64,000 nt of DNA from positions 33,604,001 through 33,668,000 of the forward strand of contig OZ020244.1 in assembly GCA_963971285.1 (NCBI GenBank), read 5' to 3'. This document shows positions 20,001 through 59,000 of this stretch, piece by piece (the stretch's first letter is position 1; every line of letters starts with the position of its first letter). The notes under the pieces were generated by a model. It was not told the DNA's origin, searched no databases, and worked only from the letters and a program-made list of their open reading frames with translations. The DNA is from Astropecten irregularis (lineage: Eukaryota; Echinodermata; Asteroidea; Paxillosida; Astropectinidae). The translations under genes were made by a program, and so were the position numbers.

Positions 20001-23000
20001 TTATTTGTGCAATGAAAGCAAAATCACTAGACAACCGGACTAGTGCAGTACACTCTTTACTAGACCAACACTGAAATCACTAGACTCGGTCCTCGGTCTA
20101 GTGGATATTTCGAACCCTGCGTATACGCTTGTGTACCATACCGCAATGGGGGATGCTGTGCTGACGGAGCACTTGCGTAAACTACAGTACACAGCAAAGA
20201 TAGTAAAGCGCCGGCGCAGTGCCCATTTCAGTAATGGCCGATCGATCCCCATGTTGTCACAGAAATTTTGCCGAGCCCGCCCTCTCGTTTATTAGTATGC
20301 ATCTCTATGAGCTCAACACACAAGGGGTGCATACACACAGGCCAAACTGTTTTTAAGAGGCATCTGTGTTTTGGGGGGTTGTTTGCGGTCTAGGACTTAT
20401 GAATCGTTTGGAATGATTCATTCATGTTTTCTAAAGTTCAGTCTGACCTCTTCCAAGGGTTGCTGAATTAAGGCTAATCTGCTTTTACTCATTGATTGTA
20501 TCCCATACAAAAGAATGTCAGATTTGCAAACCAAAAACAAATTGGTTCCCAGTTCAGCAAGAAGTAAATATTTGCAAAGGAAAAACAAATCCCATTTGTA
20601 ACAAAGTAGATGTACAAACACAAATTCACAATAAACTTTCTTCTTGATTATGTAAATTGTAATAAGAAGTTGGGAATTAAGATGGTTCAAAAGTTAAGGG
20701 TAGCATTCATCTGAATTCGGCCGATTTCAATAACACTTTGCGCTCTTCGCTAAAGCCCAAATCCATCGCTTCACGGAAAATCGATTGCTACTTTGTGTAA
20801 CAATTTACCATTTAGCGATGGATTTGGGCTTTACCGATGATCGCAAACGTTAGTCAGCTCCTGAAACCATCAGCTATACTCCATGGCAACATTTGGAAAG
20901 GAGGAATTCATTTCAGCAAAATATGTTATTCAGAATAAATGCCAACATGGCTAGGAACCATAGATCAGGGATCCTTGCTTTTGGCTAGAAAACTTGTTCC
21001 ATATTTGATATACTGTCATTTTTGGAAAAGAAACGTTTGGATTTTAGACTTTTCTCGCGAATGCAATACAGCAGTGGTGTACATTAATAATAGGAATGAA
21101 ATTTTGAGAAAGATTTTAGGCTTTGCATGGTGACAATTGGTATGTGGATTGGTTTGCGGAAACATCATACATATAATCCTTTGCACTTTCGGAGTTCTAT
21201 TTCGTTCACACTTCTCGTAATGAAATTTTGAAAACTAAATTTAGAAGAAAAAAATGAAATTTTGGTTGACAACTTGCCATGAATAAAATAAGCACAAATG
21301 CACATTGACATACATGTAGTTACAATGGATAAAAATACATGTGCACTAACATTTCTTTCAACATGTACATGTATGTATGTAAATATTTTGTATAGGTTTA
21401 CATTATGGTGTCTTTATAGTAAAAACATGTCATTCAACATACACCACTTGAAAATAAAGGAGAGCAGACTACATGTATATCACAATCATAAGAATTTGAC
21501 TGCTCAAAATACCATACATTTTGTGTAGAGGGTGTGACTGGCTGCATACCATTACCAACGTGCAGAATTTGGTTCCTTTGTAGTTCACTATATTAAGCTA
21601 AGTTGTACATACATATGTAGAATAGGTAGTGCTGCAACTTCACCATTGGTAGGTCAGTCATTTTTAGCAGCAACTGAAAACTGAAGTTATTACTGGAAGT
21701 CCTTTAGTTTAAAAGCAAGCTCTTCAATATAATTACACAGAAAAGTAATGCATAAATAAGTCATCACAATCATTTTGTTTTTGCAAAATTCTTCCATTTC
21801 AAATGACTTTTATTAAGCTTTTTTTTTGTATTATTGAAAATCCTGCAATAAAACCAATTGGCACAATTGCTTGCAGTTGTGGGTAAATTGTCAGTTGCTT
21901 GAATGTGCAATATTAATATTGGGAAGTGAAACAATTGTTTGCATGTCTAGTGTATGAAGCCTCCTGAAGGTGAAGTCAGGATTGATAACAGTTCAACAGC
22001 TTTTGAAATGGAAGAAGATCAAAAGACACAAGAAATCCATTTTCAGAAATTTCTGCTTTTCAAACTAACGAGGAATTATGTTTCATTTAGTATATAGTAA
22101 CAGTGAATTGAAACATTGAAACTGACTGAATTTTAGGTGATTGAAAGGTGAACAAAGACAAATTTACTGCAGGGGGATTCCAACCAGCAATCTCTGGAAT
22201 CTAGGCCCATACCTTTGCTCTACCAACTGAGCTACCCAGCTCAGTTGGTGGAGTCCCTATGAAAGATTTGTAATTTGCAAGATTATGTATATTTTGAAAA
22301 TCAGGCCTTGAATTTGGTTCTGAAAAGGGCAATGACACTTTTCCATTGCAAGGGGCACTTCCTTTGGAAAATCATAATTTCTATGGAAACGTTTGAAGGG
22401 GGCACAAAAGCCAAGAACCAGGGCAACGAAGGCCATGACCTCATTGGCCTCCGTTATAAAATTCAAGCCTTGGAAAACAATTTTGTTTGGGTAAAAATAT
22501 GAGAAACAAGTGTTTGGATCCGAGTGTATATGTGCTGCTGGGGTTTTAAACTAATTTTGAATGTGATCTCTTGCAGCATCAACTGTGGTCAGTCAGGCGG
22601 TCCCTGCCTCATCATGTGAGGAAGGTAGCTGCTATACCGGTAACTTGCTCATCGGACGAGAAGACAGACTCTCTGCTACCTCCACCTGCGGTATGGCGCA
22701 GGCCGAGCACTACTGCATCGTCAGTCACTTGCAGGACGTCAAAAAGTGCTTTTACTGCGACTCGCGGACGCCGTACGAGAAGGGCGTGAACGAGCTCAGC
22801 CACCGGATCGAGAACATTGTCACCACCTTCCAGGGGGAGGACCGCAAGAAGATGTGGTGGCAGTCGGAGAGCGGCCTGCAGGGGGTGTCGGTCCGCTTTG
22901 ACCTGGAGGCCATCTTCCACTTTACCCATCTCATCATGACCTTCAAGACCTTCAGGCCCAGGGCGCTGACCATCGAGCGCTCGGCCGACTTTGGGAGGAC

Positions 23001-26000
23001 TTGGAGCACCTACCGGTACTTTGCGTACGACTGTGAAGAGTCCTTCCCCGGCATCCCTACAGGGCCGCTCTACAACATCAACGATGTGATTTGCGAGGAC
23101 CGCTACTCCGCGGTGGAACCCTCAACTGAAGGAGAGGTTAAAAGTTGTTTTTGTTGATTGAACAATTTCTTCTTCATCATAACTGGAAAACAAAAATGAT
23201 CAAAACATTTAAATCTTTTGAACATGAAAAATGGCATAAACAATGTCTAGATTTTCAAAATGTATTTGTTCTTGAACCATTTGTTTGTTTGGTCTGCTCT
23301 TCCCTTGATGTATCATTGAGTTTTTGCCTGGACGTCTTCAGTGCTCCCCACTTACTGTCTCGGATGCCCACCACAATTTCTATCATTTCATTTCAATCGT
23401 CACCTGATGAGGACTAGAGCAAGCTAGTCAAAACGTTGAGACTTTACGAGAAGTGCAAACAAAATAGAATTGCAAAAGTACAAATGATTCTTACACATGG
23501 TGTTTCACAGATCCACATACCAACGGGAGACTTTTGAGAACCGGTCTTCAAGTCAATAGCGCACGTGCACGCACAATAGCGCAGGCACAAAACAACCCGC
23601 TCATGCTCACAATTGTGTGCGCGTGCGCTGTTGACTTGAAGACCGGTTCTCAAATGTCTCCCATTGTCACCATGCAAAGCCTCAAATCTTTCTTAACTAG
23701 AATCTAGACTCTTCTGAACAGTCTCTCCCTCCCTTCTCCTAGGTTATCTTCCGCGTCCTACCGCCCAACATCCGCATTGACAACCCCTACAGCGACGACG
23801 TCCAGGACATGATCAAGATCACCAACCTGCGCATCAACTTCACGGAGCTGCACACTCTGGGCGACATTGAGCTGGACAACCGCGAGGAGATCCGTGAGAA
23901 GTATTACTACGCCATCTACGACATGGTGGTGCGAGGAAGCTGCCACTGCTACGGCCACGCCACAAGCTGTGTGCCGGCTGAGGGGGTGACCTTCAAGGAA
24001 GGAATGGTGAGTCTCTACGATTTTTCCCTGCTGATTGAAAAGATTATAATGTAGGACTGTTACACGTTGCAGTCCCTGTGAAATTCCGTCAAAATTTAAT
24101 TAATTGCAACATGGTTGATGTCAATTCCTGCCTAAAGTCCAGCTTGTAGGTTCATGCAAATTGTTTTAAAAGCATCACATCGCAAAATTTGACAGGTTTA
24201 TTATTTCATGTACATACATGCTGGATCTGAAAAAAAGTGAGTGCTGCTCTGTGACCTTTACCAATCATGTATTATACATGTACCTTATTAGTTAAAGGTA
24301 ATATCATACTTTGGTTTTTTGTCAAAAAAATACGGATTCATGGGCAAATATATCAAGGAAGATACAGTCACAGTCATCTGTGAAAATTTCAGTCCCATAC
24401 GGTGCCAACTTTTTGAGAAAACCGCGAAAAACAGCCACAGTATTTCTAAAGTCTTGTCTCTTTTATTTTTGATCTTTTAAAGATCAAAAATAATTTTGGT
24501 CACTGGTTTTACTCTTTTCTTGATAAATACGGCATTTCAGGCAGAAAAAACTGTAACAATATGTTTCTACCGTCACTGTCTTTATACCCTGTAAGTTATA
24601 GGTAAATCTGTGAAGATTTCTGTTTCAGCGTGCTACCAAAGTTTGATACTACCTAAAACAAAGTTTAGGTTGTTCAGTGCTCTATTTAAAATCCCAGTAT
24701 TTGAAATATTCTCAAATTACCGGTGCCTTTGGGCAAATAGCCACATATATCTGATTTATAACTGTCTCCTACAGTGCCCTAGATTTCTTTCCACTCTCTG
24801 TTGCTTTGCACAAATTGGAGGATTTATATGGGCTTGACAGTTTGGTGTAAATATTGTATCAGTGATCTGACCAGCTGGAATGCTGGAATTTACCTTATCG
24901 GAATTGATACACACGACATCGTTCCCAGTACACTGCTGTAATGTTGGCTGACGTTATAATGTCAATTTTCAACCAAGTGGGATTTTGGTTTCTTTTTATA
25001 CAGGGTTTCTACACTGTAGATGTGAAGTAGATCTAAGTTTGATTTTTTAAAAAGCTTGGTTAAAGGGAGCATATAGGATTTGCAAGGCCTCCCAAAAAAA
25101 TATTGAGTTTGAGACAGAAAATGGTCCCAACAGTTCGTAAACAGTGCAAACAGTCACCATGGGAAATCTTGCTTCATCAGATGCTCGGTTTTTCAAGCAA
25201 ATCAAGATTTACTGTCTTTTCCAAAGATCGTTCGTCTGAACGATTTTTGGAACAAACATAAAGTAAACTATTCTTCATGTTTTATAAGAAAAATCGAGTC
25301 GGGTTTTCCCTTTTTTCTCGTGACTCAGATGTCCAATTGAGCTCAAATTTTCACAGGTGTATTATTTCATGTACATGTTTGATCAGACAAAGTATGAGTG
25401 CTGTCCTGTAACCTTTACCAATCATGTATATTGTACCTTTGAATGGCAATCTGTACAGATTCGTAATTGAGTATTTTGGTAATCATTAGATTTTTGTTCA
25501 CAATATTACATCAAAAGTTTCCTCATGATGTAGACAAATGTTCACATGAAAAGGAAAACCCCCTTTTTTAGTTCCAAACCAAAGTGAGGCTTGCCATTAC
25601 ATCTTGTGCTATTGAGACCTGCATGACTAAGCCATGATAGTGACATAGTAATGTCATACTTTGGTTTTTGTCAAAGAAATGCACATTCATGGGCAAACAT
25701 ACACACTGTATCAAGGAAGATACAGTAACAGTCATCTGTGAAATTCCCAGTCCCACACGGTGCCCACTTTTTTGAGAAAACGGTGAAAAATTGCCACAGT
25801 ATTTTCAAATCTTTTCACAGGATTTTTGGTCTTCCGAAGATACTTAAACACAAACACTGAGCTGTCTGTTTGCATTGCATAGAAACTCCACAGGAAATGC
25901 CGTTAGGATATGGATCCACCAGCTTTTGCCATCTATTTTAGAAAAGTTTAAAAAGTTCGTGAAATGGGTTTTTTTTCTAACAAATGTGCACAACCGTGTT

Positions 26001-29000: not shown

Positions 29001-32000
29001 TTACATTGCCGGTAGATATCGGAAACAGACCAGCGTGGCTCCAACCGAGTTAAAGAAATCATGCCCTGCCATCCCTTTCATCTTTCTTTTGGTTGTACCA
29101 AAATTAAGGTCGCAAAAATGATGGATATATTGATTATTTTACAATTTGTTTTTTAAGATTTTTGTTTTTGGACAAAATTGTAAAGATGTTAAATGATATT
29201 TTTTGGGGGTACCAAAATTAAGGTCCAAATATGATGGATATTGATAATTTTCAGGTGTTACTTAACTATTTTTTAAAAAGATTTTTGCTGGACAACATTG
29301 TATAGCTGTTAAATGTGACAGAGTAGGTAAAATCATTTCTGAAATGTTCAGTTGAAGGTTCTGCAGATAAGAACATTGTTTTATTTTCAACCATCCCTCA
29401 TACATCAGGGATGAGATTTCTCAGATTAAAATCTGATTTCAGACTTTTCGGTTTTGGATTTCAGACTTTTTTCCTCACAGGCTGTGTACAAAAGTATAGG
29501 AGATTTTCAGAATTCAGACTTTATGCTCCCTGTCAGCTGTTTTCAGACATTTTTATCATTGGTCAATCTCATCCCTGATACATGTACAATGTAGTTGTGC
29601 ATCATTCAATAGCGCTACGCACTTGCACTAAAAATAGCACCGAACCTCAGACAAACATTGCAACGTGGCCATGCAAACGTGTGGCGAGTGGAAGTATTTG
29701 TGCGCGTCGTGCGTGGTGTGACGTCATTAGTGCAGAATGCTATTGAAGTTCTGTTGGCACTGTGTTGCTTCATGTATAGGAACATCTTCACAGAAACAAA
29801 GCAGGTCAGGACCACCACTAGGAGGTCACAAACCTCCACTTGCCCCAGTCTTGGCCCAATGCATGTGTACAGTTGTACACCTGTACTTGAAGCACTTCAA
29901 AATCTACCCATGGTCATTTTGATTTCCCAGTGGAAGTGCCCCTTGAGGGCTCAGAATTAACACTTACAATACCCACTCACTATCAAAACAGATTTGGTGG
30001 GAGGTACTACACTGTATTATAGTGTACATGTAATGTTTGAACTTCTTTTATAAGTTGCTGGGTACATGTAAGTTAAGTTTGACAAAAGTAAATTGATTTT
30101 TTCAAATAAATGTATATCCGACTAATGCCGTGTATAACTTGAAGAATAATTGAAGAACTTCATGTACATGTACATGTACATGTACATGTATACATACATG
30201 TACGTGTACAATTGTTCATACATGTACATGTTCATGTAAGGCCCCCAACTAAAGAAGAATTTAATCCAGCAAGCTCTTAACAATTGTTTCATAACCGGTA
30301 GGCCTATGTGATTTCTTAATTTAATGAATGCAGTTCACAGACTAGTTTTTTGTGGTTTTTTTTTTCAGTCTGGTTTTGGCAAGAATTGAAAGTAGGTCTT
30401 GGCCAGTACTTGCTGGATGAAGTGAGAACAAAAAGTTAAATTTGAGGCTTGAATTTGTTGTCTCAAGGGCAACCAGTTTTCTCTCTCTCTCTATAGGTCG
30501 TCCTCAGACGAGCCTTCCATCGTCGCTTCCAGTCATTCCGGTTTTCAATACTTCCGGCCAGCTCGCTGGTGCTTTGCACTCCTGATCCTTCTTGAGAATG
30601 TCCAGATATGTTATTGTGGGACGTCCTCGTGCCCGGTACCCATGCGCTGGTTCCCACAGCACCAGTTTGCTGGCCGGCAGCTCTTGGTGTCTTAGGCAGT
30701 GTCCGGCAAGTCTCATTCTCCTGGCAGCTATTTTGTCGCTCAACCAGTTCAGACACCAACAAATGTCTCGTCCCTGTTTAGTGTTCATACAAATGAGCAT
30801 GTTAAATTATGGAACTGATTGTAATAATTGAAAAGAATTGCCTGATGGCGTGGATATTTTGTCTGATGAAATTCACCGGTAATCTGCTTCATAACATACA
30901 TGTACATGTATGTACATGAAGGCCTACCATCCTCTGACAGAACAAAGTTGAAGTTCTTTAGAGTTGATTGCCAAAATGTACGCCTACATGTGTACATGTA
31001 TACATGTCCACGAGAACAATTTATGCCAGTAACATTTGCTGGCCATCCCATAGCAGGTCAGCAGTCTTTGCCAAGCCAGACTCAATAGTGTTCCGCACTA
31101 ATGACGTCACACCACGCGCGACGCGCACTCATACTTCCACTCACCATACGTTTGCATGGCCACGTTGCAATGTTTGTCTGAGGTTCGGTGCTATTTTTAG
31201 CGTCAGTGCGCAGCGCTATTATTCAATCTGAAGTTTAAGGTCACATTATTAGGCCAGGTCATGTGCATTAGTACACTTTGTCACCACAACAGATGTAGTA
31301 GGGTTTAATCTCCTGTGCCATTGGAGGCAATGGGTGGTATGGACTGGTGCGTGGTACATTTGTTGTATAGGTCACAAGTTCAAAGTCAGAAAGTCAAATG
31401 TCTCGCCTTCCAAATGCAATAAAAATGAATTGAATAAAAACTCAAACTTATAATTTATACAGTAATTCTTTTAAGGTATTGTCATACTTCGGTAGCATAC
31501 CGAAACAGAAATATTCCCAGATTTACATTTTTTTAACATGGTATAAAGATGGTGATGGTAGAAACATACCATTAAAATGTTTCTGCCTGAAATCCTGTAT
31601 TTCATCAAGAAAAGCATAAAACCAATGACCAAAAACACTTTGGATCTTTTAAAGATTACAAATGACGGTGGAAAGATTAGAATGTGTAAGACTTGCGGTG
31701 ACACCATGTATGAGACTCTTTTAGGAAGGTGTGTGGTCCTGAAAAGGACCGATGATAGTGGATTCTCGACGTTTCGACCAGTGTGCTCTAGAGATAGTGT
31801 TGGAAGATTGTCACTGTTTTCTCAAAAAGTGGGCACCATATGGGACTGAAATTTTCACAGATGACTGCTACTGTATCTGTCTTGATATTTTTACCCATGA
31901 ATCTGCATTTCTTTGACAAAAACCAAACTATGATATTACCTTTAAATTCTTGTTAAGAATTTCTGACCACTGATGAAGCAGCTTCGTTAAAAATTTATCC

Positions 32001-35000
32001 CTGGTCATATGACATTCATTACACAATGACAGGTACTTAATACTGGAAATATAGGCCCTACATGTACCCTGTTTGGTCACTGCAAGCAGTATTGAGTTAG
32101 CGTCCCAGTATAATAATAATAATAATAATTTATTGTATTTATATTGCGCCCTTTCCAGGCACAGCCTGTTCAAAAGCGCAGTACAAGATTAAAAATTCAG
32201 ATTAAGCTTAAAAAATCACAATAGGTGTACATAATACTAAACATTTCATTAAAACATAATACAAAGTAATATTCGTTACATGTAAAACACATAAAATGAC
32301 AATACAACAAGAAGTGAAAACCAAAAATTGATAAAACCCGACTACTTCTGAAAGGCAGCTCTAAACAAGTGTGTCTTAACTTAAGTATGTGGGTAATAGA
32401 AAACCAATTGCATAGACTGCATATTCATGATTATTGCCTTTCGTTTCCCCCATGCATCATTACTTTTAGACATGAAATTGCCATTGCCAGATGCATGTTT
32501 GTTTGAAGTAGAAAAATGGCCTGGATGACTGATGGAGGTACCTTGCTCGTGGTTGCAGACCAGTAAATAAATTCCCATAGGCTCCCATGCTAAAAAGCCA
32601 ATTTCAAACAATTATTGAAAATACTAAGAAGTTTCTCAGACACTCAAGCTATACACCAAAATTAAGCTGAAAACTTCAATTTTCATTTTCTTTTAAATTT
32701 TTCTATAGGGTAACCAATTTGAGAAAAATCCAATCTAAAGGAAAATACCCTGAAAACGGCCATGTTGACTGGTGCCAGACTCGAAAAATGTACCCCTCCC
32801 CTACAGGCCCAAGTAGAGTGAGTTTAGGGCCAGAATTCATCCAAACAGCTTTAAGTTGAAAGTCCAAACTCTGGTGACCGAGTTCCATTCATTTTCACTA
32901 CAAGACTTCCCATGTAGGGCCCAGCAAATGATTTTATAAAAAAAGATTTACAGAGTATACAAAAAATTAATGAGCTCCGCGGACTGATCTGGACCTATTT
33001 ACTGGTCTGCACCCTAGTCATATCTGTAGCGTAGAGATGTTATAGGTCTAGCTATAGTCTAGCTGAGTATGAGTATGAGGGATTGGCTTTCCCACATGTT
33101 CCATAACGTACAATGTACATGTTGGCTCCTTTATCTTGGCCAAAAGATCCCGTGCTGAATAAAGTGTTGTCATAATATGTACGGCTACATGTAAATAAAT
33201 TCTTCTGTAAAAACTATTTTTCTTTGTTCACTTTTCAATGACTTTAAATTCAGTCAGTTTCCCTTGTGGTTATTTAATGATTCTATAAAAACTAGTTACA
33301 TGTAGTTATTTTTGATGTTCAGATATTTTGAAATTTTGGAATAACAAAAGTTACATGTAAGTGAAGTCCTAATTTCATATTCATGATCTCTCTTTCTGCG
33401 AAGGAAATCAATTTAAAAAACAGATACTGTTACCTATACTGTATTTCCTTGACATTGTTGCAAGGAAATTCTTCCTGTTTTGAAAAAAATTTTTATCCTT
33501 GAAAGAAAAATATTTAGAATTCTGACAGGAAGCAAAGATCTTGTTATCACCAACAATACTGACAAATAAAGTTACAGAAGACCAAACAGTGTCTCAGTTG
33601 TGGCCTAAACATGTTTACATGTTGTAAACCACCCGGGAAAAGTTGACTATTAAATTTCATGTCCGATGATTCATGAAACAGGAACGCCTCAAACTCACCT
33701 GGTATTCCACTTATGACCAATTTCTAGTACGTCACCTTTTTTTAAGACTTTGCTGACAAATTTTGTTTGAATGGGAGACTTTGGAGAACCGGTCAACAGT
33801 GCACGCGCATGCAATTGTGAGCATGCGCGCGTCATTTTGGCGTGCGTGCGCTGTTGACTAGAAGACCGATTCTCCAAAGTCTCCCATTGTGAGCATGCGC
33901 TCATTGTTGTGCTCGTGCGTGCGCTGTGGCTTGAAGACCGATGCTCCAAAGTCTCCCATTGTGAGCATGCGCATGTCGTTTTGCGCGTGCGTGCGCTGTT
34001 GACTAGAATACCGATTCTTTAAAGTCTCACATTGCATTTTGGCCTTCAGTTTTCATTTCTTTGCTGAGTAGGCTACAATTTGCTATTAATTTTTGTTGAC
34101 AATCACTGTGCAATCCCATATCTCTTCTGAAATCTTAATATCAACAATGTGTAGTTTTTAAATTAATTTTGCACATGTCTGGCACATGTGTTTTTTTTAG
34201 TTTATCACATCTGTGGGGTGTGATGTACAGTATGCATGTTTTCCTCATAAGGGTAATTTGTTACCTGTTTTATTGTTCTGAAATGTCGTTTTACTGTAAT
34301 TGTTGATATTTTGTATTTGGATTTTGGTGTGATTTAGCCGATTGGCTACAAAGTACCATTCTTGTTAATAATCCAGCAATAATGATTGGCTTTAATCCCA
34401 TGAGCAACGTTTAGTAAATTTATACCATAATACCAAGTTCCTTCAATTCTTCAACATTGATTTACTGATATTCCTTTTTTTATTCAGCCATAGGGTATGC
34501 AATTGTCTCAATCTTCCAAACACCTCTCACCAAAGAAACATAAAATCATGGATCTTTCCATGCACACTGTAAAATGAAATAACTTTAAGAGCTGCTGTGA
34601 CCTCAGTCACAAACATGGTAGAAAAATGATTTAAATGCATAATACAGGATTGGTAAAGGTGACAGAATAGCTGCAGACTCTTCATAATTTGATAAAAAAC
34701 AAACCTGTGAAATTTTTAGCTAACAAAATCATCATCGGTAACAGAACTGTAGAAAACAGTGAAAAATTCTCACAGTATTTTCAAATCTATTCACTGGAGT
34801 TTTGATCTCACGCCGAGATCAAAACTGGTTTCGGTTGTTGTTTGACTAATTTTTGCATAAATACAGCATTCCCGCTGGAAATATTTTAACGGTATGTTTC
34901 TACCAATACCATCTTCATATCCTGAAAGTTATAGGTAAATATTTCGAGCTGTGGTACCACGTAGAACTCGTTCTTTTTTTTAACCTAGCAATTGCCAAAG

Positions 35001-44000: not shown

Positions 44001-47000
44001 CACAAGTTTGCCAATAGTTTTTTAAGATGGCGTACGTTTCCAAAATTACGCGCTCACCCCCTCTGCTGTCGGTCTTTAGGTTATTTATGTCTATGACATT
44101 TTGACAGATGTTGAACAGCGCCCTCTATCCTGTCAGCCGTCCTCAAAAGTGCAAACTTAATATTCTTTAAACAATTCATGTGCAGTGTTTGTATTAAGGG
44201 GAATGTTATTTCTGTTGGTCGGTTTGCATAAATTCTTTTTGTTGTCATTTGGCGGGATTTATGATTAAGAATCTTTCTTTTCTTTTTGATGGTGTGTATT
44301 TATTTGCTCATCCAGATATCGTCTGGTGAGCTCTTCCTTCTGCCTGGAGAGGGGCAAGATGTACGTGATTGACGTGAACTTCAACAGCTTTAGCGGTGGA
44401 GCATCCAACCCCAATGCTCAGATCCTGCTGGACTCGGTAAGGAAAGACATGAATGTTCACTGGCGGCCGCTAGGGAGCTTTAGATTTTCACGGTTGACTA
44501 CGTCGACTGATACGTGATTGCGTCATGCCGAGTCTTTGCACATGCGTCAGGTCGTCACCAACGTTGTCCCAGTGAGTCGAGGTCGCCCAAAATTGTGGTT
44601 TTGACATTCAGCACGACGTTGTGGTCGACGTGAACGAGGTCCACGTTCACACTAATCTAAAGCTCGCTACTGCTGGAGGTCGCTGTTCACACTATGTTTT
44701 GTCCACATTACTTTTTGTACACATCTCTATTTGGCATAACACATTTTTGTACACTTCACTTTTTGTACACATCACTATTTGGACATAACATGTTTTTGTA
44801 CGCTTCACTTTTTGTACACATCTCTATTTGGCATAACACATTTTTGAACACATCACTTTTTGTACACAGCATTTTGATGCCCTTTGTTGGGCAAAATGTT
44901 TTGTTTGTTACCTTTTTTGCACCTTGGAATGAGAAATCAGTTATGTTATTTGTGAAAGAGGAACCAGAAGAGGTGTGCAATGAGCCTTGGCAGTCCCCAT
45001 TAAGGTCTAGTTAGATTTGCTTATAAATTTGTTCCTTAATTAGTTTAACCCATCCTGACATGGGTAAAGTAAAGCATATTTGATTACTTTCATTAATCAC
45101 CTACTATCCATTGTTTCTCCTATCTCAGGTGGTCCTTATGCCCCGTAATACTAACTTTGACATGTTCAGCGGCTATGATAACATCAAGCAGAACCGTCGT
45201 GAGCAGTGGGAGTACTATCGGTGTGGTGAGGCCCACCTGTCAGCAGTCCACGCCCCACTATCCGATATCTGCAGGGAGCTTATGTTCAGCATGTCTGCGC
45301 TCATGTTCGACGGTGCAATGGGTGAGCTGCGGACCAAGCATTGGGGGTTTTTTGTTCCTAGATCTTAGCGTTGGTGTGACAAGAACATTTTTGTACGATA
45401 GGATTAGTGGCAAGATACGTATTGTGTTGCTCAATAATTGAGGGTTATTATATAGGAGGGTTACATAGACCCTATTCACGGTGCATCCATCCTACATTTG
45501 AAACAGTGCAATCAAACTGAGGCTTGGATCAGGGATGTAAGAGTTCTGGAAATTTCCGGATTTCGGAAATGGCGTATTGAAAAAAAATTTCCGGAAATGA
45601 CAAAATTTTGTTTTCCACAGCGCTGCGCCCGCGCGCAAGCGCTTGTTCATTTTGTGAGTAAAAAAACAATAATAAAGCGTATCGTCTGGCTCCGTGTTTT
45701 GTGAACACATGTTTAAATGGGGCTAAATATGGCAGGAAACAGACCGTACCGATAGCGCCCTCTGCTGACATCAAACTGAATAGTCTGGTTCCATATAATT
45801 TTTGTCACGTTAATGAATATATTGGGATGTGGGTACTAAGCCACTGGTATGGACGCATTGGTCGCAATATCAACCGCACATGTCAAAATGGCTTTGAACG
45901 TTAGAAATAAAAAAGAAGGAAGGATATATCATAGATCGAGACATTCACAAGGGACAAGATACTAAAACCATTGATACAAATAAATGGATAGAAGTTTGAA
46001 CCCTAAACACTGAAGGCCGCCTGTACCCTGCCGTGAGTCTCTCGCCTCGGTCACGCAATTTATTGGCCTTCAGTGATTTTCCGGAAATGACTTTGTCGGT
46101 CACTTACATCCCTGTTGGATTCAAAGTAGTCTGGTACAAATTTTGTTTGTAGAGTTGGTGTTATCTTTTCCAACGGGTATACAAGGAAGGTGACGAGATG
46201 GTTGCATTGTGAATAGGGTCTATTAACCATGTATAAAAACTCGATGACACACCCGTGCACAAGCCAATTAGAGCTATATCCGTCATGCAGGACGCGGCCA
46301 TATTTGGGAGGAAAAAATGAACCTAAACATTCAAGCGCTTATTAGAACAAGCGTGCTGCTTAGCGCGCGGTACGCAGTGCCAGCCATTAGGCGGTACGCG
46401 GTATGCGATGCACCAGAAACATGATGGAACGCCGTAGCTATAACCGGTGGCTTAGATTGTTTGTTGGTAATTCCATTCCGGTCGCCAATTCCATCATTCA
46501 ATTTGTCATTCTGTCATTCTGTTCGCAAATTTCATCAGTCAATTTGGCAAATTGAATGATGGAATTACCGAAGCAAACAATCTAAAGAAGATAGCAACAG
46601 CGTTCCATACGATCTTTGATTTGAAACACCCTTTACAAATGGTCCTGTGAAAGACGCGTCCACAGGCAGCCAATACGTCATCTAGTTTTTTTTTTTTATA
46701 TATCTATGTATATATATGGTCGGTGTTGATCGTTCTCTCACTCTCTCTCTCTCTACTCAAGGTTGTGACTGCGATCCCATCGGATCCAGGAGTTCCATCT
46801 GTGAGGAGTTTGGCGGTCAGTGCGAGTGCAAACCCAACGTCATTGGCCGTCGCTGTAACCAGTGCGCTCCGGGCACGTATGGCTTTGGACCCAGTGGTTG
46901 CTCGGGTAGGTGCTTTAATGGTCTATTCCACTTTGCATTGAGAATTTCAATGGGAGAATTTGGAGAACCAGCGCACGCACACACAATTGTGAGCATGCGC

Positions 47001-50000
47001 GCGTTGTTTTGCGCGTGTGCTGTTGTGCATGTGCGTACGCTGTTGACTTGAAAACCAGTTCTCCAAAGGCTCCTATTGATATTACTTTTGATACCTTCAA
47101 TTGTTGATTTAATTTTAGATTTTATCCCCCTGTACGATTTCTATTGTTGGAATATTGTTAACGCCGCACGTATCTTAAATGATCCTTGAGATATAACGGT
47201 ATGAGCATGGTTTCATAGCTTCTGACTGCCAAATGAACAAAGATAATTGACTATTAGGGACACCACCAACATAGGGCTGGATAGCTCAGTTGGTAGAATG
47301 CCGATATGGTATTCTGGGGGTCGCTGGTTCGAATCCCACTCCAGTCAATTTTTCTTTGTTCACTTTCAATTTGTTTATAAAAAGAAATAAGAATAGACCG
47401 ATCCAGTAAGCCCCTCCCACTGCACACATGAGCACATGTTCCTCTCCAATGCTTCACTGCACGTTCCTGTCGCGCGTACGTACGTGCGCGTACATTTGTT
47501 GGACTTTAGTGAACGCATGTTGGACATAAACCACGACTGTGATTGGTCAGAAACAAATGGGGCGGGGTTTAATGGATCTGTCTATTGTTTTATGCTGATG
47601 ATGGATATAAATCATTGCTGATTAGTCTTTTTATTATAAGAAAAGAAGACTGTTTGTTTTGAGCAAACGTAAAGTGCTTGAGCTGCTTGGTGAAATTGTC
47701 GTCCCATCATCCTTGCAGCTTGTGCCTGCGACCAGCGGGGCTCCCTGGACAACTTCTGCGACCCCTTCAACGGCCAGTGTGCCTGCATCCCCAACACCTA
47801 TGGCCGGGTCTGCGATCAGTGCGCCCCGGGCTTCTGGAACTTCCCCAACTGCCTGCGCTGCGAGTGCAATGGACACGCCCCGACCTGCGACAGCCGGACG
47901 GGAAGATGCGATGGCTGCCAGGACTTCACCGTCGGACATTACTGCGAAAGGTACGATCAGAACCAAGGCTGTCCTTCTCCAGCTAGGTGCCAAGATCCAT
48001 CCAGCCTCCTTGCCGATCCATATTATATCCATATTCATTTGTTGTTTTTTAAATGTAGCAATGAGATTTTAGTTAGCTGGATCAAGTCTCTACTCAGTAG
48101 TCAATCAAGGAGTTTTTAAAAGCAATGTCTGATGATGTCAACCGATGATGGTCCAGAAAATGTTCAGATTGTTTCTGTAACAATCCTACGGACAATTGTC
48201 TCATTTAAAGGAAACAATCCCTATTTGTTTCCCTTAAACTTGACCAAGAGCATATGTTTCGAATCTTTGTTTTAAAGGTATAATACATGATTGGTAAAGG
48301 TCACAGAGTAGCACTCACACTTTATCTGATCCAATATGTGCATGAAATAATAAACCTGTGAACATTTGAGTTCAATCGGACATCTGAGGCGTGAGAAAGT
48401 ATCAAAAACCAGACTCAATTTTTCTTATAAAACATTAAAAATGGTTTTGATCTTACACCGAGATCAAAACTGGTTTTGGTCTTTATTTTTACTAAATTCT
48501 GGATAGATGCACCATTTCAGCGGAAATATTTTAACGGTATGTTTCTACCATCACCAACTCCACACCCTGTGAGCTATACGTAAATCTGTGAACATTTCTG
48601 TTAGTGGTATGTTACCAATCCTGTACTGTACCAGATGTAAGTATGTCATGGAATAAACAATTTCATTTTTCTGTCCATGTCTGAATTGTGCCCTATCATA
48701 GGTGTCTGGATGGGTATTACGGCGACCCTACCCAGGGGGCTAACCTTCCCTGCCAGCCCTGCATGTGCCCAGGGGGTGAGGGTAGCGGGCACCAGTTTGC
48801 CGACACCTGCTACATCGATCAATCCATCCAGACTGTCGTCTGTATCTGCGAGGAAGGATACACCGGTGAGTAGTCTGGTCTTCAACTCAGAAATTTGATT
48901 CAAGTTGGACTCGAACCCAAGACTCTTGGAATCAGTTTTGAATATCTGCAATACATTGTCTATTACAGGGACAAGAAGGAATTAGTTGCTTGCATTGTAT
49001 AATATACCTATCTACACGATTGGCTTGTTGTACCTACCTGTGTACTGGGTTCCATGTCCAATTGGTTTACTTTTGTAAGCTTGATGGTTGTATTGGTCCC
49101 CTAATAATAAGCAGGACGTTTGTTGTTCAACCTCGGCCCTCAAGCAGACCATAAATGAAAGTTGAAAGGCAAACTTTACTTTTACATATTGTCCCTTCTA
49201 TGGGATATGCCATCCACATGACTGAATGAAATACCCGCTCCTATGCAGGATTTAAATGTTATGTGGATCGGTTTGCGGAAACACCATGTAATAATCGTTC
49301 GTACTTTCGCACTTCTATATCATTGGCACTTCTCGCAATTTAGGTCTCAACGTTTCGACTAGCCTGCTCTAGTCCTCATCTGGAGACAGGAGGATGATGA
49401 GGACTAGAGCAGGCTAGTCGAAACGTTGAGACCTAAATTGCGAGAAGTGCGAATGATATAGAAGTGCGAAAGTACGAACGATTATTACATGGTGTTTCCG
49501 CAAACCGATCCACATACCAATTGTCACCATGCAAAGCCTCAAATCTTTCTTGATTTAAATGTTGTCAGTTAGTGTTTCTGAGGTCATGACAGTATTAACA
49601 CCACATTAGGTGCTGCAAATCAATCAGTATTGTGTCAGAAGAGACTAGTTGACCGCAGTGAGCTTGGTGGTCCAACTGCTGAGACATCTGAGGGCTTTAA
49701 TGAAACCGGACTTGAGGCTAGGCTTGGGACTTATTTCGCTACCCTCATTTGAGGCCCACATAATAAAACAAAGGGATTGGGCCACAATGACAATGCTGAA
49801 GAAAAGGCCTCAGCTTTGCCATTTATCCTGGGCCCTTCATTTCATTTAGGACACAAAATGGCGGTTGCAACATTCCAAAGCCTAGACTCAAGTCTCATTT
49901 TGTAAAGGCCTTTAGTAAGTAGGAGTCCTGGGGCCGATATCATAAAACTTACGAGGCGTCGCAGAGTTAAGATGCATCCATACTCTATGGAATCATCGCA

Positions 50001-53000: not shown

Positions 53001-56000
53001 CTGCCAGGCTGGCTTTGGGGGTCGCACATGCTGTGAATGTGAGAGTCTTTTCTTCGGCGATCCACTTGTGGGATGCGAACGTAAGTATGAGAACATGGGT
53101 CTTCTTCTTCTTCTCGGGTCACTACACAAGTCCTGTCCAGTGAAGGGTACAAGATCTGGCTTTGGTGTTGAAAGACTCCAGATCTTTGGCAGTGCATGGC
53201 TCTGTTTTTTGGAGGGAGGAGAACAAGAGAACCCAGAGAAAAACCCTCGTAGAACAGTAGAGAACCAATGCACAACTCCACTCACATAATGACCCCAGCT
53301 TGGACCGAACCCGAGCCACATTGGCGAGTAGGTACTCGCCTCTCACCAATGTGGCTCGGGTTCGATCCCAGCTGGGGTCATTATGTGAGTGGAGTTGTGC
53401 ATTGGTTCTCTACTGTTCTATGAGGGTTTTTCTCTGGGTTCTTTGGTTCTCCTCCCTCCAAAAAACATCAAACATGATCTGAGGCTGTGCTCCGTTACCA
53501 TGCATGGGTATTTGATGTGGCTGGCAGCCAAGGGCGCTAATGAATGCCGGCAACTCAATCACGTTATAGCCGCATCGTTCACATTTCAGCACCCCAGCTG
53601 GGAGTAAGGATCATTACCCTCCCAAATTATTATTATTCAAAGTATTTTTTGGTGCTTGAGAGCTAAACTCAGTCTGAGTCTAATGACTAGTGGTATGAGA
53701 TTTACTGCTTAGTGAGTACTTTGGCAGATTCAAGGTGCTCCTCGGTGCGGTGCTCCATAAAACATCCTTCAGACCTTGGGTGAGTTATTTTGTTTGCATG
53801 ATCCTGTTGCAGGTTGCCAGTGTGACCCACAAGGCTCGGAGACCATGCAGTGCAATAACGACGGGTCCTGCGTGTGCCGGCCCGGTGTGACCGGCAAGTA
53901 TTGCGACGCCTGCGCTCACGGCACGACCGGTGAGGTGCCCAACTGCGAGCCGTGCGGTGAATGCTTTGACGACTGGGACGAGATCATCAACGCCCTCCGA
54001 GGTAAGATCATTAGCACGCTGCTGAAGGATCCCTCTTCATGGTCTGTTCAATTGTTATTTCTTTACATTGAGGTCATGTCACGTGAAGCCACAAGCAGGC
54101 GATCAGTTCTAGCCAATGTCTCTGCGGGTTCTTCATCCGTTGACTTCGACGACTAACCGATGATGACGAAAAATATGGTCTTCTCACTTCAAAAGTCAAG
54201 TCTAAGTTCGTAGCACTCTAAGATGCATTCCCAATGGGAGACTTTTGAGAACCGGTCTTCAAGTCAACAGCGCACGCGCACGCACAACAGCGCAGGCGCA
54301 AAACAACGTGCGCATGCTCACAATTGTGTGCGCGTGCGCTGTTGACTTGAAGACCGGTTCTCAAAAGTCTCCCATTGTCACCATGTAATGTTGGCATTAG
54401 GAAATAGCGCCCTCTATTGTTGCATGTACTCGGGTACATAGATGTGCTTTAAAGCCCTCATTGCCAATCAGTGCAGTGGAATTACAGGCTGCTATATCCC
54501 TATTACACATGCATCCATCCTGCATTCAAAGCAGTGCAACCAAACCGAGGCTTGGATTCAAAATAGTCTGGTACCTGTTGAATTAGTGTTAATCTTTTCC
54601 AGTGGGTATACAAGGAAGGTGACATGATGGATGCACCGTGAATAAAGCCTATAGTGTGGTTTCTTATCCAGTGCAAAAGGCGGTGGTCGCCATGAAACGT
54701 GGGGCGCGCATTGCATTACTCAAAGTGTGAAATTAACTATGAATATCATGCGCAAGACGGCAAAGAATGGTGGAGCAAGAGGAACATTGAACATCAGAAA
54801 TATCTTCTCACATATTTGTGATGTTCGGTACATCGTACATCACACATTCACAAATATCTGCGCAGTTTTGTTATGAGATGTTTGCACGTGCATTATAATG
54901 ACGTGTAACAGTACATCGTACAACACAAATCTGTGCACATTTTCATTTGTGTGTTTTTATAGTGGCATGATTTTTTCTGAAAAATCTTGTCTTGCTTTAG
55001 TTTACGATAATTAGAAATCAAGTGAAATGTACAAAAAAAAGTTATTATTATGAAGTTAGTGGTTGTCATGTGTCATGGCGGCCACAAAAATGCGTAAGGA
55101 CACTATAACGAACACAAAGAGGTCCATGGATATTGTATGTTAAAGTGGACGCTCGTTATAGCAATTTTAAGCCGTCGGTGATCCAGCATTCAGTTTTCGT
55201 TTTACACAACGGGAGCCAAGGATGATGTTCCGTATAGCTTAATGTTTGGTAAAGCGGCGTTTCACTGTACATTATTTTCCTTCTCCCTTTGCATTGACAG
55301 ACCAGACAGAAGAGTTGCTGGAGCGCGCCCGTAACATCAAGTCCACTGGAGCCACGGCCGCCTACGATGAAGAATTTGAACGTCTGGAGAGGAAGCTGGC
55401 CGATGTAGAATCGCTGCTGACCGATCCCAGTGTGACTCCGGAGCAGCTGGATGGTCTTAACGGTGACCTCGATGGCATCAGGTAGGTAGCTGTCTAAGGC
55501 TCCACTGAAATCTCTAGGTCGTCCTCAGACAAGCCTTCCATCGTCGCTTCCAGTCATTCCGGTTTTCGATACTTTGCACTCCTGCGTCCTTCTTGAGAAC
55601 GTCCAGATATGTTATTGTGGGACGTCCTCGTGCCCGGTGCCCATGCGCTGGTTCCCACAGCACCAGTTTGCTGGCTGGCAGCTGTTGGTGTCTTTGGCAG
55701 TGTCCGGCAAGTCTCATTCTCTTGGCAGCTATTTTGTCACTCACCCTGGATACTCCAGTATACAGAGCCTCGTTGAGAAATAGTTTAGTTATTATCAGCT
55801 GGTGCTTTCAAATTCACCTCTACTCGGGGAGAGTTGGGTACGGTGTGCCGTAGACTGCAGTACTTCATTGTGTCCCCCATCCACAAAGCTAGTCTATGTG
55901 ATAGACGCACTCGCCATACATACATCGAGCGTCTATCACAATGCGTGCAGATTTCCTGATTAATTATGCAAGCCAACCCAGTACTGACCTCTAGGTTTTG

Positions 56001-59000
56001 ACCAATCAGGGGGCATCTACTATCGTACTGTATGGCGAGTGCATCTATCACGTAGATAGCTGCTGCCGCTCGGACGCAAGTAATTGACCAATCAACATCC
56101 TCCGTCACGATCCTGAAGGAAATGTTCTCAAAACAGATCTGATTGGCTGATGTGCCGCGTTGCATAAAATTTGCATGCACGCATGTATCGGACGTTCGTA
56201 GGTAGTTCGCACGGAGTAGAACGGGTCATACTTATACTACCACAAAGTCTGGAATCCTGCGGTCGATTTCACCAAACTCATCGTAACTTACTATCAATCG
56301 TAGGACTTATGATGCATTGAAGCCCTACGTGGGATAGGCCCCCTACGATGGGTTATCCTTTGTAACTCGAGTTACGATCGATCGCGGGGCTTTGTGAAAT
56401 CGACCCCCTGTATTATTAACGAGAAACATTTGTCCGGTCTTGTTTGCTAGGGCTGATTTGGAGGAGTACGCCAAGAAACTGGATGCTGTGAGGGGCGATC
56501 TTCAGACAACCCAGGTTGAGAACTACCGGGCCAACCGTGAGCTAGACCGTCTGGCCGAACAAGGGCTGGAGGTCAAATCGGACGCCGACCAGCTGAAGGA
56601 TGAGATCATAATCATCGAATCTTCCAATGTTGAAGGTAAAAATCGGCACACACGATGGGATTATTTACTCAGACACAAAACAAACAAGAGATTCTGAGGA
56701 GTTAAAAATGTCTATACAGTAATCAATCCAAACGCAAGATTTTGAGTGATGCCCTGTTTTGATTAAAAAAGAAAATACGGTGGTGTCAGTATATTATTTT
56801 GTACACTGCCAAATCATCTTTTATTGAAATCTGGGAAGCTGGAAAGCTAATCATGAGCAAAAAAATGTTGTCCATGCCGAAAAAATCTTGTGTTCGGATT
56901 ACTGTATACTTAACTTTTTGACCGTCTCTAATGTAAAGTCCAGTAGCTGCAGCTTGCAATGGGTCAAGCTTTTTGTATGGAGACTTGTTTTTTAACCAGG
57001 CAATTTACTGACTCAAGTGTGTTATCGCCTGTTTGTGTGATTGATGCCATAGGTTCCTTGTCCCTGTTGCCATGTACCAATGCTCATACATGTGCAATAG
57101 GGCTGTATGCGGATGAACACTATGGGTGATCTTGTTGCTGGCTTGAAAGGAGAGTTAAAAGAGGACACAGCAGTCAGGATTGATGTTGTAACACATGGAA
57201 CCTCTAACTTAATGACTGTCACCCTATAGATGCTCCATACACATATTAACCTCAAGATATGACCCAGCTTTGTACTCGGGGATAACACTCAATGTCAGTA
57301 TTAAAGGGAGCATATAGGATTTACAAGGCCTCAAAAAAAACAATGATTGAGTTTGAGACAGAAAATGGACTCAACAGTTCATAAACAGTGCAGACAGTCA
57401 CCATGGGAAATCTTGGTTCATCAGATGCTGGGTTTTTCAAGCAAATCAAGATTAAGTGTCTTTTGCAGAGATCGTTCGTCCGAACGATTTTTGGAACAAA
57501 CATAAAGTAAACTATTCTTCATGTTTTATAAGAAAAATCGAGTCGGGTTTTTGCTATTTTCTCGTGATTCAGATGTCCAATTGAGCTCAAATTTTCACAG
57601 GTTTATTATTTCATGTACATGTTTGATCAGGCAAAGTATGAGTGCTGTCCTGTGACTTTTACCAATCATGTATTGTACCTTTAAGCCACACAACAATGCT
57701 CAACGGAGATAGATTGAGAGCTGGAGATGTCCTCATCATAGGGCTGGATAACTCCAATAATCAGAGCGCTGGTTCGTTATTCCAGTGATATTGGGTTCCG
57801 CTCCTGCTTAGTTTTTGCAAGCTTGCCGAAGTGCCAGTTTAAGTTTCTAGTCTGTCTAAACTCTATAATCATCAAATAACAACAAGGGAAGCTGACTGAA
57901 TTTTGAGTCATTGAAAATGAACAAAGAACAATTGACTGGCGAGGGATTCGAACTGCCGACCTCCTGAATACCGTTATTGACTGGAGCGGGATTCGAACCA
58001 GCGATCTAAGGAAAACCGTCTTAAACTCTGGCAGCTGTTTCTGTTCTGTACCAAATTTAAAATTGGTGATCTTCTTTACCCATCGTCCTATGCAGGTGCC
58101 TTCAAGAGCATCTTGGAGAGTCGCAACAGGTCCCAAGCTGCCCAGGGCAAGGTGGACGGTGCCGGAGTGACCGTGGACGAATCGGCTGACATCAGGGCAG
58201 AGGTAGAGAGGATCATGGCGGAGAGGGAACGGGAGCTGGCTCAGAAGCAGCAGGAGTACCAGGACAGGCTCCGAGGCGTGGACAATCAGCTGACAGGCCT
58301 GGAGGCTAGGCTTGGCGAGTTAAATGAACAGGTATTGAAACGTGAATTGCTATGTCAGAACTGCTATGGGTGAATAACGAACAATTCCATATGGTGCTCC
58401 TACAAGAGCAACTTATTGGCCAGTCACAATGGGAGACTTTGGAGAACCGGTCTTCAAGTCAACAGCGCACGCTCACACAATTGTGAGCATGTGCGCGTTG
58501 TTTTGCGCATGCGTACGCGTGTGTGCATGTGCGCTGTTGACTTGAAGACCGGTTCTCCAAAGTCTCCCATTGGCAGAATCTGTCGACCCTTTCCAGATTG
58601 CCATTGGGCAGTTGGGACGACAAATTCCGTTCATTGTGATTAGCTAATGTGGAGGCGCACTATATGGAATCGCCCCCCTAACTAACTGACTTTGGCTGGA
58701 AAATAAAGATAAAGGAACTGGAATAAAATTTATTTTAAAAAATTGATCTGACTATTTGAGAAAATTGTATTAAGTTTTTGGTAGCATCGTGTTGGGAAAA
58801 TGGAGTAATTTCGTTACTTGACACCAGCCTGAACAGCAGTGTTTAGTGCGTTCGATTTGGTTACTCGCGCTTACTCAGGGAAGCACGACAGCATTCGATT
58901 TGACTTTGACGTCACATCTCGCGCTTACTCGGGCCTGGCCCAAGTGAGCGACCCGCCTAGCGGGTTACTTCGGTAAGTATCCCACAGTGCAATGTTCCAA

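Follow-up and report, generated by a model that had tools for sequence, protein, structure and literature searches.

The analysed stretch, hereafter the window, comprises 64,000 nucleotides of Astropecten irregularis DNA (contig OZ020244.1, forward-strand positions 33,604,001 to 33,668,000). It contains pieces of a laminin gene, with Laminin_N matches at 22567-23157 and 23743-24054, and several copies of a non-coding hairpin of ~90-150 bp with long arms, which we call family A. The copies, the bases bordering the copy at 23524, and two paralogous sites without the insertion are listed here (z values are from RNA folding).

21104-21220, minus strand: second paralogous empty site, with AATT at 21135-21138; aligned through the junction at 81% identity (118 columns)
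23523-23524, plus strand: left AT of A/AT/T, here AC (alternatively, host A followed by an element T changed to C); read from the sequence
23525-23662, unstranded: family-A hairpin MITE of 138 bp (GGG to CCC); both termini matched, one hairpin, z -17.9
23663-23664, plus strand: right AT of A/AT/T (alternatively, element A followed by host T); read from the sequence
33773-34030, plus strand: compound element with a single left end and then three right ends (33885, 33957, 34030); terminus matches
46952-47074, unstranded: diverged 123-bp family-A copy; terminus matches
49395-49551, plus strand: paralogous empty site, with AATT at 49519-49522; once joined, the two flanks of the 23524 copy align to it through the junction at 84% identity (159 columns)
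54236-54373, unstranded: 138-bp copy, T subfamily; terminus matches, z -20.6
58431-58568, unstranded: 138-bp copy, G subfamily; terminus matches, z -20.1
59552-59669, unstranded: 118-bp copy, T subfamily; terminus matches, z -14.6
60663-60800, unstranded: 138-bp copy, G subfamily; terminus matches, z -13.3

The family-A terminus begins with GG (GGGAGACTTT; also written in full as GGGAGACTTTKGAGAACC), and a 20-mer from it, GGGAGACTTTTGAGAACCGG, served as the query. With up to three mismatches, the query matched 14 places in the window and none in 100 shuffles. Across the genome (475.7 Mb, 168 contigs), it had 1388 exact matches (676 + 712), compared with none for the reversed control, supporting the mobile fold-back element of the original prediction. 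All seven copies named in that prediction are present, and 7/7 have AA as the left flank and TT as the right flank, as it had claimed. Three of them depart from its description: the copy at 23524 has C instead of T as its first element base (AACGGG), that at 33772 is the compound element, and that at 46951 is the diverged copy, which ends in CTCCT. Four copies (23524, 54235, 58430, and 60662) are exactly 140 bp, again as claimed, when the terminal T or C and the terminal A are counted. RNA folding gave a strong hairpin for each of the five window copies tried (z -13.3 to -20.6), and the suggestion that these hairpins make strong dsRNA holds as a folding prediction only.

An uninterrupted host repeat had been placed near 49511-49545, and AATT is indeed found there within 49395-49551, with the second empty site on the minus strand at 21104-21220. 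The junction in both empty paralogues is CCAATTGTC. A third match to the flanks of the 23524 copy, at 49254-49387, breaks off at the junction and is uninformative. The host repeat with the empty site forms an inverted pair of its own (49254-49387 and 49395-49551). Family-A copies may also have served as targets themselves. At 25 places genome-wide, a family-A end abuts GCATGCTCACA-AT, which is loop sequence of another family-A copy, and the loop itself reads CACAATTGTG; these junctions fit insertion into the AATT of the loop. Two of the 25 correspond to the inner junctions of the compound element in the window; there the left half is absent.

Genome-wide, family-A copies occupy unrelated surroundings in which AAT and ATT are constant. 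Using an intact 25-nt terminus, GGGAGACTTTKGAGAACCGGTCTTC, to count ends, we found AAT before 2401 of 2642 (90.9%); the other flanks were BAT (94), not A at -2 (78), and not T at -1 (69). Per position, deviation amounted to 69/2642 at -1 (2.6%), 78/2573 at -2 (3.0%), and 94/2495 at -3 (3.8%). In 66 right ends, taken from copies that had been selected because their left flanks were odd, the terminus had 17 mismatches to the consensus in 660 positions over its first 10 nt (2.6%), and decay was 5.0% when 19 of its first 20 positions were counted. Because the flanks deviate about as often as the terminus decays, the target is a near-invariant AATT, and most exceptions require only later mutation. 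The 32 flanks of 16 unselected copies had G at base +4 in 17, A in 7, C in 5, and T in 3, and thus gave no AAATTT motif outside AATT.

At least 151 matches to DDE_Tnp_4 were found genome-wide, with 150 of 410 candidates scored, as were 35 matches to YqaJ, many of them neighboring DDE_Tnp_4. A family-A-type terminus was present at one of the seven DDE plus YqaJ loci whose surroundings were fetched, that on C8; it was not found at the other six, three of which were scanned piecewise. The C8 coding element is 6188 bp (~6.2 kb) and matches THAP (PF05485, 1.7e-9), HTH_Tnp_4 (PF13613, 6.7e-11), DDE_Tnp_4 (PF13359, 6.5e-39), YqaJ (PF09588, 1.3e-14), and SAP (4.1e-7), with the THAP, HTH, and DDE matches on two separate open frames that we took as exons. 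Its ends, 6188 bp apart, read AAT/GGGAGACTTTTGACTTTCTGG... and ...GTCGCCAAAAGTCTCCC/ATT; the ends of its family read AAT/GGGAGACTTTTGAC... and ...CCAAAAGTCTCCC/ATT. All six copies of this family with both ends found have AAT...ATT flanks and differ in outer sequence, and two further copies, for which the fetched stretch held the right end only, have ATT after it.

Both ends of the C8 element have in common with family A a 12-bp end, GGGAGACTTTTG. The autonomous partner anticipated in the original prediction, which was to carry the 20-mer end, is therefore matched by the C8 element over the first 12 bp and not over the rest; the full family-A terminus was not found on a coding element at any of the seven DDE plus YqaJ loci examined. 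Since only these 12 bp are common to the two, family A did not arise by simple deletion from this C8 copy. Another candidate partner, L026 (THAP 1.3e-14; DDE_Tnp_4 3.1e-41), was set aside, as no left terminus occurred in the stretch fetched; its coding end is followed by a family-A copy and a diverged hairpin.

MITEs of the Tourist type are small, non-coding, and dependent on the DDE_Tnp_4 transposase of PIF/Harbinger elements, whose partner protein is a Myb/SANT protein. Family A differs from this system in its AT-type site and in the YqaJ domain of its coding relative, and none of the 16 unselected copies had TWA, the PIF/Harbinger duplication (PMC4482050), on both sides. ISL2EU elements are reported to target A/AT/T, duplicate AT, have ends beginning with GG, and encode THAP, HTH, and a DDE transposase together with a separate YqaJ protein (PMC4482050). 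Family A and its coding relative agree with this description in the A/AT/T-compatible site, in the GG at the start of the terminus, and in the THAP, HTH, DDE, and YqaJ domains; the difference is that family A itself is a non-coding hairpin with long arms. Judged by its terminus, its site, and the domains of its coding relative, family A is best classed as a new and abundant MITE family in the ISL2EU group, not as Spy or as a new class; ISL2EU is the sister group of Spy within the PHIS superfamily (PIF/Harbinger, ISL2EU, Spy). The PHIS survey relied on transposase homology and might have missed MITEs (PMC4482050), and family A is not named in the open-licence papers that made up the literature searched. 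The result is an abundant MITE family (2642 intact ends) whose terminus and target link it to a coding ISL2EU element of this genome.

In general, a DDE transposase pairs both ends of an element, cuts, and joins. We consider it very likely that the observations as a whole are explained by ISL2EU-group (PHIS) MITEs moved by a THAP-DDE transposase from ISL2EU elements elsewhere in the genome. We infer from the 12-bp terminus and the site in common that a C8-type ISL2EU transposase moves family A. Such an enzyme would recognize the terminus GGGAGACTTTTG, excise the hairpin, and insert it at A/AT/T. Following the published ISL2EU scheme, a staggered cut of 2 nt would then be repaired to leave AT on each side, converting AATT to AAT-GGG...CCC-ATT with a true duplication of AT. 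The compound element at 33773-34030 would have formed when one copy inserted into the loop AATT of another and a later movement used ends that were not partners.

The original prediction held that the hairpin inserts with no target-site duplication. There is no net gain of bases if the outer T...A is element-borne; however, AA/TGGG...CCCA/TT consists of the same letters as A/AT/GGG...CCC/AT/T, and the absence of a duplication does not follow. Because the target is nearly invariant AATT, an AT duplication is inseparable from an element-borne T and A at ordinary copies, and we turned to copies with altered flanks. First, among ends altered at -2, 75 of 78 were fetched and 3 were left out; both ends were present in 66 copies and not in 9. 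The same altered base occurred at +1 in 3 of these 66 copies (G,G twice and T,T once), where a rough estimate of the chance expectation is ~1, whereas +1 was still A in 58 and was altered without matching in 5. Second, for ends altered at -1, of which 20 of 69 were fetched and 15 gave both ends, 0/15 had a matching +2. One-sided odd flanks of this kind are expected without duplication and equally from single later mutations. Third, a copy flanked by GT...GT (L118) lies in a high-copy repeat, whose other places, sampled by fetching 14 of the 39 others listed plus L172, read AATT in 13/15, TATT in 1, GATT in 1, and AGTT in 0. The GT...GT flanks require a single private change before insertion together with duplication, or else two changes afterwards; this one case leans towards duplication. 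Finally, base spectra at -1 and -2 were similar (p 0.23), those at -1 and -3 differed (p 0.005), and those at -2 and -3 were not clearly different (p 0.10), which is weakly in line with AT behaving as a unit.

These flanks also bear on what separates ISL2EU from Spy. It is conceivable, though we think it unlikely, that AT duplication in ISL2EU and insertion without duplication in Spy reflect one chemistry, in which T and A are borne by the element and joining is blunt at AA/TT; the one-sided odd flanks (58/66 at -2, and 15/15 without a match at -1) allow this reading. If it were true, ISL2EU and Spy would differ in where the border is drawn and not in cutting. Claims of no duplication need to be checked against an AT duplication at A/AT/T, and family-A copies offer a natural data set for asking if the insertion chemistry is common to ISL2EU and Spy.

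The original prediction proposed a Spy-related or new family, and here kinship with the Spy neighborhood survives whereas membership in Spy, or in a new kind of element, does not fit the target and the coding capacity. Were family A a Spy element or MITE, its ends would be TGGG...CCCA and it would insert bluntly between AA and TT with no duplication. The letters permit this, as the target is almost invariant, and the odd flanks are mostly one-sided (+1 is A in 58/66; no match at -1/+2 in 15), although later mutation also yields one-sided flanks. Spy and family A are further alike in inserting between A and T, in PHIS kinship, and in an empty-site arithmetic that is possible without duplication. 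Spy is reported to have an AAATTT target, no duplication, and a single transposase ORF (PMC4482050), and cgSpy has an AAWTT target in ~60% of insertions (PMC11304231). Family A instead has AATT, with no preference for T at +4 (3/32), and the coding element with the common terminus has both THAP and YqaJ. Assignment to Spy fails on the lack of an AAATTT target signal and on the THAP and YqaJ of the coding relative, making it improbable as an alternative to ISL2EU.

Two other explanations are less probable still. The near-perfect hairpin, the lack of coding capacity, and the absence of any duplication longer than 2 bp could suggest a new class of transposon, or a fold-back element formed without a transposase, but this is largely refuted by the presence in this genome of coding relatives that have the 12-bp terminus and the flanks of family A; the site also matches that published for the ISL2EU group exactly (PMC4482050). 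Spread of a palindromic repeat, nested or in tandem, by replication slippage or recombination and not by transposition might account for the compound element and for the 25 junctions between an end and the loop of another copy, but it is very hard to credit given unrelated surroundings with constant AAT and ATT, the existence of empty paralogues, and a compound for which loop insertion and movement between the ends of two elements would suffice.

Within the ISL2EU-group assignment, family A is not alone in its terminus. A second MITE family, B (GGGAGACTTTTGGAGAGTCGG...), has its terminus and flanks in common with family A in 3/3 copies fetched. Element C, of 575 bp (L221, L222), has the same terminus and flanks, with both ends present in two of three copies fetched; one of its ends resembles the left and the other the right end of the C8 coding element, and its right end has 17 bp in common with family B. 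A THAP-like frame in element C stops after 39 residues, and its Pfam match (E 0.0067, 17.6 bits) falls below the curated cut-off of 23.9 and so supports, but does not prove, descent. Element C probably derives by internal deletion from an ISL2EU sister family. One of its copies (L222) lies in a family-A loop.

Family-A copies also lie at fixed places inside amplified DDE/YqaJ elements (for example L010-L016, or L047 and L050-L054), where they are carried as passengers. In comparisons of the two arms, changes shared by both numbered 11 vs 3.7 expected in the T subfamily and 6 vs 15 expected in the G subfamily, and these counts gave no consistent signal of arm-to-arm correction. A passenger hairpin in L034 has the same change in both arms (GGGATAC...GTATCCC) relative to sister copies, and L029/L057 retains the right-hand one; the L034 change may hint at arm-to-arm correction.

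Other repeats were noticed as well. The DDE plus YqaJ locus L021/L049, joined with L178 and L179 on C11 near 25.28 Mb, has 845-bp inverted repeats that are 99.8% identical, and could represent a young element whose inverted repeats are very long. In the window, two similar open frames on the minus strand, at 55514-55807 and 30463-30806, contain …RMRLAGHC…WEPAHG… and presumably resemble the tail of a non-LTR retrotransposon protein.
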